NCBI RefSeq assembly: GCF_900105135.1
Contig: NZ_LT629741.1
Location: 2,767,001-2,831,000, forward strand
Direction: 5' to 3'
Length of the DNA: 64,000 nt
From: Gramella sp. MAR_2010_147
GTDB taxonomy: Bacteria > Bacteroidota > Bacteroidia > Flavobacteriales > Flavobacteriaceae
Shown here: in pieces, positions 59,922 through 62,590 of the stretch
Layout of the letters: each line of letters opens with the position of its first letter
How positions within the stretch are numbered: position 1 is the stretch's first letter
Translations under genes and position numbers: made by a program
The notes under the pieces: model-generated
Seen by the model: the letters and a program-made list of their open reading frames with translations, nothing else
Databases searched by the model: none
Told to the model about the DNA's origin: nothing

Positions 59922-61250
59922 ATGTTTGATAATTTAAGCGATAAGTTAGATAGTGCCTTTCACGTCCTGAAAGGACATGGGCAGATAACAGAAATAAATG
60001 TTGCGGAAAGTCTTAAAGAGGTAAGACGAGCCTTAGTAGATGCCGATGTAAACTATAAAATAGCCAAGGAATTTACCAATACGGTAAAAGAAAGGGCTCT
60101 TGGTCAGGATGTTTTAACAACATTAAAGCCGGGACAGTTGATGGTGAAGCTCGTCAAAGATGAGTTGACCCAGCTGATGGGTGGAGAAGCTGAAGGTATT
60201 AATCTTTCTGGAGATCCTTCTGTGATTTTAATGTCTGGTTTACAGGGGAGTGGTAAAACTACGTTTTCTGGTAAACTGGCGAATTTCTTAAAGAACAAGA
60301 AGACAAAGAAACCACTCTTGGTTGCCTGTGATGTATATCGTCCAGCAGCGATCAATCAGCTCCACGTAGTTGGAGAGCAGGTTGGCGTTGAGGTTTATTC
60401 AGATGAAGGAAATCAGGATCCCGTGGCGATCTCTAAAGATGCTATTGCTTACGCAAAAGAAAATGGTCATAATGTAGTAATCATTGATACCGCGGGTAGA
60501 CTTGCAGTAGATGAGGCGATGATGACCGAAATTTCCAATATTCATCAGGCGATTCAGCCACAGGAAACACTTTTTGTGGTAGATTCCATGACTGGTCAGG
60601 ACGCAGTAAATACTGCAAAGACCTTTAACGAAAGGTTGAATTTCGATGGAGTTATTCTTACCAAGTTAGATGGTGATACTCGTGGGGGTGCCGCTATTTC
60701 AATTAAATCGGTTGTAAATAAACCAATTAAATTCATCGGTACCGGTGAAAAAATGGATGCGATCGATATTTTCTATCCTTCTCGTATGGCCGACAGAATC
60801 CTGGGAATGGGAGATGTTGTGTCACTTGTAGAAAGAGCTCAGGAACAATATGATGAAGAGGAAGCGAGAAAACTTCAGAAGAAGATCGCAAAGAATGCTT
60901 TCGGTTTTGATGATTTCTTAAATCAGCTTCAACAGATCAAGAAAATGGGATCTATGAAAGATCTTATGGGGATGATCCCAGGAGCCGGGAAAATGCTGAA
61001 AGATGTAGATATCGATGATGATGCCTTTAAAGGAATTGAAGCTATTATTCATTCTATGACTCCTGGAGAAAGAAGCGAGCCAAAGGTGATCAACGCCAGT
61101 AGAAAGAAAAGAATTGCCAAAGGATCTGGAACTACCGTTCAGGAAGTGAATCAGTTATTGAAGCAGTTCAACCAGATGGGTAAAATGATGAAGATGATGC
61201 AAGGTGGTGGTGGCCGAAAAATGATGCAAATGATGAAGGGGATGCAATAA
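59922..61250 (+). CDS. ffh: signal recognition particle protein Ffh (SRP54)
   Basis: A 442-residue GTPase that recognises hydrophobic signals and delivers ribosomes to SecYEG. The N domain (about 1-90) precedes G1 GLQGSGKTTFSGKLANF (about 107-123), DVYRPAAINQL, DTAGRLAVD and TKLDGDTRGGAAISI; the methionine-rich M domain (from about 325) has SKMTPGE-like HSMTPGERSEP and ends GRKMMQMMKGMQ. The length is normal. It is followed immediately by the left heptad array and the four-helix-bundle gene. Confidence 0.97.
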   Translation: MFDNLSDKLDSAFHVLKGHGQITEINVAESLKEVRRALVDADVNYKIAKEFTNTVKERALGQDVLTTLKPGQLMVKLVKDELTQLMGGEAEGINLSGDPSVILMSGLQGSGKTTFSGKLANFLKNKKTKKPLLVACDVYRPAAINQLHVVGEQVGVEVYSDEGNQDPVAISKDAIAYAKENGHNVVIIDTAGRLAVDEAMMTEISNIHQAIQPQETLFVVDSMTGQDAVNTAKTFNERLNFDGVILTKLDGDTRGGAAISIKSVVNKPIKFIGTGEKMDAIDIFYPSRMADRILGMGDVVSLVERAQEQYDEEEARKLQKKIAKNAFGFDDFLNQLQQIKKMGSMKDLMGMIPGAGKMLKDVDIDDDAFKGIEAIIHSMTPGERSEPKVINASRKKRIAKGSGTTVQEVNQLLKQFNQMGKMMKMMQGGGGRKMMQMMKGMQ

Positions 61251-61255
61251 GATCT

Positions 61256-61294
61256 AGTTCACAGTAAATTAGTTGACAGTTTGCAGTTATGAGT
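61256..61294 (+). repeat. left heptad array flanking the four-helix-bundle gene
   Basis: AGT recurs at 61256, 61263, 61271, 61278, 61285 and 61292, that is at steps of 7, 8, 7, 7 and 7 bp, mostly as NNNCAGT. It fills the ffh-gene gap and the last copy lies just inside the gene. It is the inverse of the array on the other side. Confidence 0.85.
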
Positions 61295-61660
61295 TTTAAA
61301 ACTTTATTGGCATATCAAAAAGCGTTTGACTTAGCTATGCAAATTTTTAAAATATCTAAAGGATTTCCAGTAGAAGAGAGGTTTGCTCTTACATCGCAAA
61401 TTGTAAGATCTTCTAGGGCAGTTTGTGCTACAATTGCTGAAGCATATAGGAAAAGAGATTATATAAAGCATTATAAAAGCAAGTTGACTGATGCTGATAG
61501 TGAGAATGCAGAAACCCAGCTATGGATAGATTTTGCTCTTGCTTGCAATTATATTTCAGAAGAAGAATCTATTAGTTTAAATTCTCAGAATGATGAAATT
61601 GGTAGACTAATCAATTACATGATTAATAACCCAGGCAAATTTGGAGTACGAGACTGCTAA
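61289..61660 (+). CDS. four-helix-bundle protein (23S rRNA intervening-sequence/Avd-like family)
   Basis: A 123-residue all-helical protein. FKTLLAYQKAFDLAMQIFKISKGFP, EERFALTSQIVRSSRAVCATIAEAYRK (about 28-54) and the AETQLWIDFALACNYI helix (about 74-90) are the signature of the family first seen in 23S rRNA intervening sequences, which also includes Avd of diversity-generating retroelements. Here it stands alone between ffh and folD, not in an rRNA gene and without a reverse transcriptase. It is bracketed by inverted arrays of 7-bp period, which suggests a small mobile or domesticated element. Members form pentamers in the Avd case; function in this setting is unknown. Confidence 0.88.
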   Translation: MSFKTLLAYQKAFDLAMQIFKISKGFPVEERFALTSQIVRSSRAVCATIAEAYRKRDYIKHYKSKLTDADSENAETQLWIDFALACNYISEEESISLNSQNDEIGRLINYMINNPGKFGVRDC

Positions 61661-61687
61661 CTGCCCACTAAAAACTGAATACTGAAT
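61653..61687 (+). repeat. right heptad array flanking the four-helix-bundle gene
   Basis: ACT recurs at 61653, 61660, 61667, 61674 and 61681, exactly 7 bp apart; four of the five are followed by G. The array overlaps the last codons of the gene and ends directly at the folD ATG (61688). It is the reverse complement of the left array pattern. Confidence 0.9.
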
Positions 61688-62590
61688 ATGACAATTCTCG
61701 ACGGTAAAAAGATCAGTAATGACATCAAGGATGAAATCGCTGCCGAAGTTACCAAAATCAAGAAACGTGGAGAAAAAGTTCCTCATCTGGCTGCAATTAT
61801 TGTAGGGAAAGATGGAGCTAGTATGACCTACGTGAATTCTAAAGTAAAGGCCTGTGAAAGAGTAGGTTTTGAATCCTCACTTTACAGACTTCCGCATACC
61901 GTGAATGAACTGGAATTACTGGATAAGATCGAAGAGTTGAACCAGAATGATGACATCGATGGTTTTATCGTTCAATTGCCTTTACCTCCTCAAATAAATA
62001 CTCAAAAGGTACTGAATGCAGTAGATCCCGATAAGGATGTAGATGGATTTCATCCCACTAATTTCGGGAAAATGGCGTTGGATATGACCAGTTTTATCCC
62101 TGCGACACCCTTTGGAATTTTAGAACTTTTAGAGCGTTATGATATTCCTACCAAAGGAAAACATACCGTAGTGATTGGGAGAAGTTATATCGTAGGACGG
62201 CCTATGAGTATTTTAATGGGAAGAAGTGGATTTCCTGGAAATTCTACTGTTACCTTAACACATGAATTTACCAAGAATATTACTCAGGTAACATCTCAGG
62301 CAGATATTATCATTATAGCTGTTGGAATCCCTGATTTTCTAAAAGGTGAGATGATCAAGGATGATGCTGTAATCATCGATGTTGGAATTACCCGTGTTCC
62401 AGATGATAATACTGAAAAAGGATACGTCATTAAAGGAGATGTAGATTTCGAGAATGTAAGTAAACGTGCCTCTTACATAACACCAGTTCCTGGTGGCGTG
62501 GGACCAATGACGGTCTCGATGTTATTGAAGAATACTTTACTGGCCAGAGAAAGACATAAACATAGAGCTTCAGAAGCTTTGAAGAAATAA
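61688..62590 (+). CDS. folD: bifunctional methylenetetrahydrofolate dehydrogenase/cyclohydrolase
   Basis: A 300-residue FolD that interconverts 5,10-methylene- and 10-formyl-tetrahydrofolate with NADP. YVNSKVKACERVGFES holds the catalytic lysine (about 43-58), GFIVQLPLPPQIN the folate site, ATPFGILELLERYDIP and GRSYIVGRPMSILMG the nucleotide-binding region, and TPVPGGVGPMTVSMLLKNTL the C-terminal signature. The length is normal. Its start codon lies at the edge of the right heptad array, so any native leader or promoter may have been altered by the element. A bidirectional terminator follows. Confidence 0.97.
   Translation: MTILDGKKISNDIKDEIAAEVTKIKKRGEKVPHLAAIIVGKDGASMTYVNSKVKACERVGFESSLYRLPHTVNELELLDKIEELNQNDDIDGFIVQLPLPPQINTQKVLNAVDPDKDVDGFHPTNFGKMALDMTSFIPATPFGILELLERYDIPTKGKHTVVIGRSYIVGRPMSILMGRSGFPGNSTVTLTHEFTKNITQVTSQADIIIIAVGIPDFLKGEMIKDDAVIIDVGITRVPDDNTEKGYVIKGDVDFENVSKRASYITPVPGGVGPMTVSMLLKNTLLARERHKHRASEALKK

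Follow-up and report, generated by a model that had tools for sequence, protein, structure and literature searches.

The nearest known kind of element to the locus analysed here is the S23p-bearing intervening sequence (IVS) of 23S rRNA genes. In the sections of PMC4990558 drawn on here, such an IVS, with a total size of 428 nt similar to that of our element, has complementary ends around an open reading frame (ORF) of the same protein family (S23p, or IVP), and the function of S23p/IVP proteins is still called unknown. The locus in Gramella sp. MAR_2010_147 differs from an IVS in that it lies between protein-coding genes and its arms are arrays of a degenerate word. It also differs from Avd of diversity-generating retroelements, since its genome is without a reverse transcriptase anywhere (PF00078 gave no match in 17 of 24 genomes of the genus, this one included). 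REPtrons, composed of a RAYT gene and REPs, are alike in having one small repeat-flanked gene and gene-less repeats dispersed between genes. However, according to the parts of PMC3733652 used here, REPs are palindromes of 20-40 bp that bear a GTAG or CGTC tag, RAYT being a tyrosine transposase, whereas our locus has word arrays and a four-helix-bundle protein. The gene between its arms matches PF05635 and not the Y1 (HUH) transposase of REPtrons, for which (PF01797, Y1_Tnp) no match was obtained in 16 of the 24 genus genomes, again including this one.

Several reports describe heptamer repeats in bacteria, and their cause is not agreed upon. Cyanobacteria are said to harbor such repeats, named STRR, reportedly described by Mazel in 1990. 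Arrays of TAACTGA occur in Beggiatoaceae, cyanobacteria and five Bacteroidetes including Gramella forsetii, as stated in the sections of PMC4679880 considered here. For one of the two G. forsetii sets the closest relative has a shorter spacer with no obvious repeats, the other set led the author to suggest that the repeats act in gene rearrangement, and no mechanism for the spread of the repeats was evident to the author. The GGGAATC arrays of Xanthomonas (PMC4692102, likewise in part) mostly have four units, are mostly intergenic and often form convergent pairs, 70 and 75 in two genomes. Both kinds of repeat share with our arms the 7-bp unit, the mostly intergenic location and the proximity to gene ends but, in the portions of the two papers referred to, are described as repeats alone, unlike the gene-bearing element presented here; the terms S23 and four helix have no occurrence in either main text. 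X. campestris is both among the species studied in PMC4692102 and the source of the S23p/IVP structure 2gsc (XCC0516), public since 2006. In searches of open-licence PMC papers we came across no report joining S23p or four-helix-bundle genes to heptamer arrays.

The window, that is, the whole analysed stretch of 64,000 nucleotides, contains the element in the 437 bp between the ffh stop (61250) and the folD ATG (61688), which consist of a left array, an ORF and a right array (Table 1). The preliminary description had located AGT at 61256, 61263, 61271, 61278, 61285 and 61292 and ACT at 61653, 61660, 61667, 61674 and 61681, and all these positions are correct. The 7-bp period it ascribed to both arrays holds at every step on the right; on the left one step is 8 bp (7, 8, 7, 7, 7). 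Its statement that the inverted arrays and the gene occupy the complete ffh-folD gap is accurate. The sixth left word (61292) lies inside the ORF, which starts at 61289, the first right word (from 61653 on) runs into the stop codon of the gene, and the last base of the right arm directly precedes the folD ATG. None of 20,000 mononucleotide shuffles per arm reached the 3-mer chain of either arm, and only one place in the 64-kb window, 61271-61295 in the left array, has four or more copies of a 4-mer in a chain with 6-8 bp steps. Because the spacers are degenerate, TRF at a minimum score of 30 picks up nothing of the two arrays but a section of the right one (61674-61688, 2.1 copies). The IVP gene is the only ORF of at least 60 aa between the arms, and there is no transposase of its own. 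Terminal inverted repeats, as in insertion sequences and MITEs, are present in the form of word arrays; the same inverted arrays provide complementary ends around the ORF, imperfect and with no continuous stem. An Rfam search of the locus gave no match, so it is not inside a 23S rRNA gene.

Table 1. Positions of the element and of the adjoining genes in the window
Feature	Coordinates	Strand	Basis
ffh (signal recognition particle protein), upstream, 0 bp to element	59922..61250	+	ORF; name from preliminary description
Left arm: six AGT-centred words, mostly CAGT/TAGT, 7-8 bp steps	61251..61294	+	read directly
IVP/S23p four-helix-bundle gene, 123 aa	61289..61660	+	
Right arm: five ACT(G) words, exact 7 bp steps, reverse complement of left word	61653..61687	-	read directly
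folD, downstream, 0 bp from element	61688..62590	+	ORF; name from preliminary description

The encoded protein matches PF05635 (23S_rRNA_IVP, S23p) with 99.4 bits at a cut-off of 33.8 and is also above the cut-off for bAvd. Its monomer model is a four-helix bundle, as in the relatives 2gsc and 2rld, both deposited in the PDB with 5 chains, and the modelled fold resembles both the S23p pentamer and Avd. Judged by dN/dS values of 0.03-0.10 in three pairs of ffh-folD copies, the gene at this site is under purifying selection.

To follow the element in related genomes we read individual gene junctions, with ffh as the anchor for ffh-folD in genus and family genomes; folD itself was matched in every one of the 24 genus and 80 family genomes. 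Four junctions, each read in 22-24 genus genomes, were found in a filled, an empty and a gene-less state. At ffh-folD, 7 of the 24 genomes are filled, the copy of one of them (G002) having an in-frame stop, and 13 have a plain spacer of 35-47 bp without arrays. Another genome retains a left-arm remnant beside the native spacer (L201), and three carry a GC-rich palindrome, next to a clear right arm in L206 and to short right-arm-like ends in L198 and L199. Among 29 family loci, taken as the best FolD matches of 80 genomes, 6 have a gap of more than 300 bp with CAGT arms and count as filled by gap size; 23 are short, two of which (L270, L271) have arrays by eye and too little room for the gene. 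Thus, with 7/24 genus genomes and 6/29 family loci filled, the element is patchy at this site, and family-wide vertical conservation of the gene, which the preliminary description had set against its own proposal, is contradicted. A further reservation, arrays in relatives lacking the gene, gave a mixed picture: the 13 plain spacers speak for the proposal, the arm-like remnants in 4 of 24 genomes against it, and arrays without a gene are common elsewhere in the genus.

One could suppose that the gene has been domesticated at ffh-folD and retained by this lineage because it serves the cell, with the arrays as vestiges. The sampled ffh-folD proteins do group together (94/95) apart from most other copies of the genus, copies at this site are found in many Flavobacteriaceae, and the dN/dS values of the three pairs are low. 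However, the minority of filled loci in both genus and family, the in-frame stop in G002 and the still matched arms fit this poorly, and we consider domestication very improbable.

The other junctions vary in the same manner. At a HemW-like junction (name by eye), 7 of 24 genomes are empty, with the genes overlapping by 1 bp or lying 3 bp apart, and 8 are filled (403-491 bp), among them a copy with two stops in G009. The remainder comprise one arms-only pair with the word CAAT (L345), four arms-only pairs of AATTTGA (64-71 bp), two palindromes and two others; in L344 an AATTTGA pair is followed by a CAAT element. Filled and empty alleles of this junction share at most one A, and no target-site duplication could be read. 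At a hemB-like junction 6 of 24 genomes are filled and 13 short; L325 has a 181-bp rest resembling the 3' end of the gene, L329 and L331 have arrays and no gene, and two further genomes have an insert of ~985 bp. Upstream of a thiolase gene (named fadA by eye) the junction is filled in 13 and short in 9 of 22 genomes, two others of the 24 having given only a paralogue and been left out of the count; two short ones (L293, L294) keep a right-arm remnant. The native spacer of empty alleles is missing from filled alleles at ffh-folD and fadA, an outcome not expected from plain insertion. Comparison of related species at the same junctions shows that arms and gene form a unit, which is present, absent, decayed or reduced to its arms. 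The preliminary description had proposed a small mobile or domesticated element with arrays as its ends; what stands is a patchy, array-ended family, whose mobility the comparisons suggest.

A GC-rich palindrome, CCCCCAAGGGGG ... CTCCTCCCC..GGGGAGG, occurs at IVP junctions in L198, L199 and L206 (ffh-folD) and in L347 and L349 (HemW-like). G018 and G011 carry it at both, so small repeats of more than one kind are accommodated at these junctions.

The genome of the window (G000; 3.16 Mb, one contig) has six PF05635 genes by profile search. By eye, these six copies have six different words, namely TGTA, GTGA, AGTTCG, CAGT, CAAT and GTTGTG, each reverse-complemented on the opposite flank. Since the word differs between copies in one genome, this is not a CAGT element as such. 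The AGT/ACT signature that had been offered for the whole family therefore describes the lineage of the window, and other lineages use other words.

For statistics we assembled 195 loci: 35 from the genome search, 80 by place from 11 genus genomes rich in copies (hand-picked among the matches listed) and 80 mostly from Flavobacteriia, the best 80 of 160 relatives. Broken genes, short flanks or Ns led to the removal of 19, which left 176 for testing, each with an intact gene and complete flanks. In a set of 102 genome-search loci, which includes five from outside the genus (L010, L013, L015, L023 and L031), the lag-7 match is 0.382 vs 0.289 in shuffled flanks (z 36.7), and lag 14 is also elevated (z 24.9). 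For 29 loci (L220-L248), drawn from among the best-scoring matches across Bacteroidota, the lag-7 z is 14.9, so the expected excess of period 7 over shuffled flanks is real. Lags 6, 7 and 13 stand out in 74 Flavobacteriia-type loci (z 29.7, 18.0 and 17.6), which points to mixed 6- and 7-bp steps. The signal is local: in 104 genus-set loci the lag-7 match is 0.43 upstream and 0.41 downstream within 75 bp of the gene, 0.30 and 0.27 over the following 75 bp and 0.24-0.27 farther out, and the excess is gone within about 150 bp of the gene.

As a rule, the two arms also carry each other's word in inverted form. A common word in inverted orientation, with chains of at least two in both arms, was found in 79 of the 102 loci, vs 23.5% of mismatched-site pairs; with chains of three the figures are 25/102 and 1.3%. 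In direct orientation only 32 (chains of two) and 5 (chains of three) of the 102 loci share a word. The phylum set gave 17/29 inverted, vs 18.8% of mismatched pairs, and 4/29 direct; together with its period-7 signal this bears out the suggestion that such array-flanked genes form a family in other Bacteroidetes. For the 74 Flavobacteriia-type loci the counts are 62 inverted and 9 direct, and here 77% of mismatched pairs match too, a comparison made uninformative by the commonness of CAGT. Over 139 loci, the arm-to-arm match is 18.2 within a locus vs 15.8 with other loci of the same site (p 1.4e-8), and far lower, 10.9, with arms of other sites. Since own arms pair better than same-site arms, hairpin-guided exchange between them may take place. 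In most genus-set and phylum loci the left strand is G-rich and the right C-rich, whatever the word, and the left G excess is weak in the 74 Flavobacteriia loci (38 vs 29). By eye, polarity is exceptional in L072 (ACTG left, CAGT right) and in L068 and L089, whose right arm has CAGT.

In a tree of 110 IVP proteins, copies from the same site mostly group together, and sites occupied by several clades carry several words. For example, the fadA junction houses three clades with the words TGTA, TAGA and AGTA; the latter two are sisters (support 100/98) that differ by a change of [TG]AGA to [TG]AGT, present on both sides of the gene (4 and 5 loci). Conversely, related proteins at different sites have a common word, GTGA at sites 11 and 20, and TAAGC is common to sites 9 and 30 (by eye). 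Among 104 genus-set loci, different-site pairs have more similar words the more alike their proteins are (r 0.206, a value without phylogenetic correction, vs a maximum of 0.064 in 500 permutations). With 215 loci, mean word similarity is 0.40-0.41 for different-site pairs of 60-80% identity, vs 0.04 below 35%; above 80% it is only 0.22 (58 pairs). Same-site pairs of 25-35% identity reach 0.12-0.14 (25 pairs) vs 0.04 elsewhere, and L010 and L180, which lie at the fadA site outside its three clades yet have TAGA-like words, suggest some site effect on the word. As far as such comparisons go, the word is tied more closely to protein lineage than to site, though not without exceptions. The two arms of a locus usually have the same word, which can change in both together, and most copies within sites look vertically inherited.

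Arrays also occur without a gene. The pattern CAGTN{2,3}CAGTN{2,3}CAGT has 497 overlapping matches in the 24 genus genomes, 16 of them in that of the window, vs 10 and 0 for the reversed pattern; the latter is an independent control, whereas a CTGA pattern is not, being contained in ACTGATA arrays. Among the matches listed, 30 loci (25 distinct), two have an IVP gene near and four have a CAGT array followed by an ACTG array within 40 bp; the opposite order within 40 bp was seen in none of these 30. Inverted pairs of arms only are L346, L350, L358 and L363 (by eye), and also L373, L383, L385 and L390. Gene-less CAGT arrays can be long: L371:7-122, L376:1501-1588 and L380:1501-1623 hold 17, 13 and 18 words, those of L371 and L376 being perfect CAGTTAT, which is TAACTGA on the opposite strand. 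In G004, gene-less CAGT arrays begin at the very ends of several contigs and therefore probably break assemblies. The GGGAATC arrays of Xanthomonas look like arms-only copies as well, and X. campestris encodes the IVP protein XCC0516.

These arrays raise the question of whether the arms are simple repeats born by slippage at tolerant junctions, with the IVP gene inserting into, or being flanked by, such hot spots and the arms matched by hairpin-templated repair. Perfect expanded repeats do form some arms (L040, L104, L167 and L175), gene-less CAGT triples far outnumber reversed ones, the two arms of a locus match better than arms of the same site, and L010 and L180 hint at an effect of site on word. 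Against slippage, however, speak the association of word and protein across different sites, the CAGT words kept while the spacers vary, the confinement of the signal to ~150 bp around the gene and the plain empty spacers without arrays, and simple slippage does not explain the inverted partner. We regard this origin as improbable.

Beyond the genus, PF05635 is over cut-off in 220 of 296 sampled Bacteroidota genomes, and its matches in plasmid records are mostly cyanobacterial. Thirteen cyanobacterial loci from the plasmid hits show elevated lags 7 and 8 (z 7.4 and 9.7), with inverted words in 8 of 13, vs 41% of mismatched pairs, and direct words in 2. Most cyanobacterial plasmid copies examined are flanked by similar arrays; L403 and L407 had no clear arms on inspection. 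By eye, arms of ~7 bp period in direct orientation on both sides occur in plasmids of cyanobacteria (L251, L402), Gemmatimonadota (L400) and Spirochaetota (L401). Some IVP genes of cyanobacterial plasmids are enclosed by CRISPR-cas genes: by cas6/cas4 at L254:1189-1557 and L402:1192-1551, and by cas10/cmr3 at L404:1189-1545, with spacers of 35 and 36 bp in the last. A MAG contig assigned to Nitrotoga (Betaproteobacteria; L094) bears a CAGT-armed element resembling those of Flavobacteriia, which may be a binning error. Carriage by phages was set aside, with 1 weak match in 50,697 phage records. On an Azospirillum plasmid (L256) an IVP copy lies inside a 23S rRNA gene (RF02541, 2150 bits), and its ends are 7-bp arrays with an inverted match of 27/30 bases (counted by eye). 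In this one case, an rRNA intervening sequence is, by its sequence, built like the intergenic elements.

What the arrays present to a reader can be narrowed down from their layout. Recognition of double-stranded DNA in helical register, as the preliminary description had imagined, does not agree with the data: steps are 7 with frequent 6 and 8, lag 7 (genus) or lags 6, 7 and 13 dominate, and lags 10 and 11 have no excess in the genus set or the Flavobacteriia loci (lags up to 16 covered). A continuous RNA hairpin between the arms was rejected as well. In 65 loci with CAGT on the left and ACTG on the right, spacers are CN or TTN in 124/192 left and 105/177 right cases and steps mix 6 and 7; with words kept, spacers varying and steps mixed, a continuous helix is not the conserved feature. 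Exact words per arm peak at four in these loci (25/65 left, 32/65 right). A single-stranded target, whether RNA or ssDNA, is favoured by the kept words, the variable spacers, the phase-breaking steps, the strand bias (G on the left, C on the right) and the number of exact words, about four.

A protein that reads spaced words is known. TRAP, the trp RNA-binding attenuation protein, is an 11-mer of beta fold that reads GAG/UAG words with 2-3 nt spacers. As a ring protein reading many spaced short words it is analogous to what we propose for IVP, with no relation in sequence or fold being claimed. We put at about even the chances that the locus is a minimal mobile-type element, made up of an IVP/S23p gene and two inverted arrays of ~7-bp words, whose ring protein reads its own arrays. 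By analogy with the solved relatives, the IVP protein would be a homopentameric ring, each subunit reading one word, so that a ring would grip an array of about four to six words. The form bound, in the manner of TRAP, would be a single-stranded or RNA form of the element ends. A ring on both ends might bring them together for copying or insertion, with the enzymes supplied in trans, and S23p-ORF intervening sequences would represent the same element in copies that rRNA tolerates. Counting degenerate words, the arms of the window have six and five; because exact CAGT words peak at four, five or six being rare, the match to a pentamer is loose. Against this reading count the lack of any enzyme inside and the absence of PF00078 and PF01797 from a genome holding six copies. 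The native spacers missing from filled alleles, the lack of a readable target-site duplication, the vertical look of most copies within sites and the exceptions in word and polarity count against it as well. Two candidate partners in trans were rejected: neither G000 nor G002, the latter with 17 IVP matches, has a reverse transcriptase, and Y1 transposase is absent from G000 and from G015, which has 12. IVP matches average 10.1 in the 8 genomes with Y1 and 4.4 in the 16 without (uncorrected p 0.007), an association that genome size may confound.

Binding of the ring could also set the expression of the IVP gene, and the left array, because it overlaps the start region, could control it. Taken further, this would make the locus a regulatory cassette, in which the ring binds the word array in the mRNA leader, as in TRAP-like autoregulation, and near the downstream gene; the arrays would be operators, and ordinary transfer together with homologous recombination would account for gain and loss of the gene. 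The layout suits such a cassette, the left array overlapping the start region and the right one abutting the next start codon, and so do the association of word and protein, the G-rich left arms on the gene strand (genus and phylum sets) and the purifying selection on the gene. Translational regulation by TAACTGA repeats in Beggiatoaceae was, moreover, proposed by MacGregor in 2015 (PMC4679880, in the sections considered). On the other hand, the right arm is a reverse complement, so its transcript carries a different word; gene-less inverted arm pairs exist, different lineages fill the same junctions, and polarity is reversed at a few loci. A regulatory cassette therefore appears unlikely to us, though the likeliest alternative to the mobile-type element.

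A wider reading, which we advance tentatively and hold to be less than an even bet, is a categorically new class of mobile elements, consisting of a ring protein and end arrays with an evolving 'word code', possessing no enzyme of its own and underlying both rRNA intervening sequences and many heptamer repeats. In such a code the word would follow the protein in most copies, and do so in both arms. One element family would then join two puzzles, the rRNA intervening sequences and the dispersed heptamer repeats, and, if true, the class would cover, as solo or arms-only copies, a large share of the heptamer repeats that lack an explanation in cyanobacteria, Beggiatoaceae, xanthomonads and Bacteroidota. 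For the S23p/IVP family the arm arrays offer a concrete, lineage-specific candidate ligand, and the concerted change of the word in both arms between sister proteins amounts to a natural experiment in nucleic-acid recognition.
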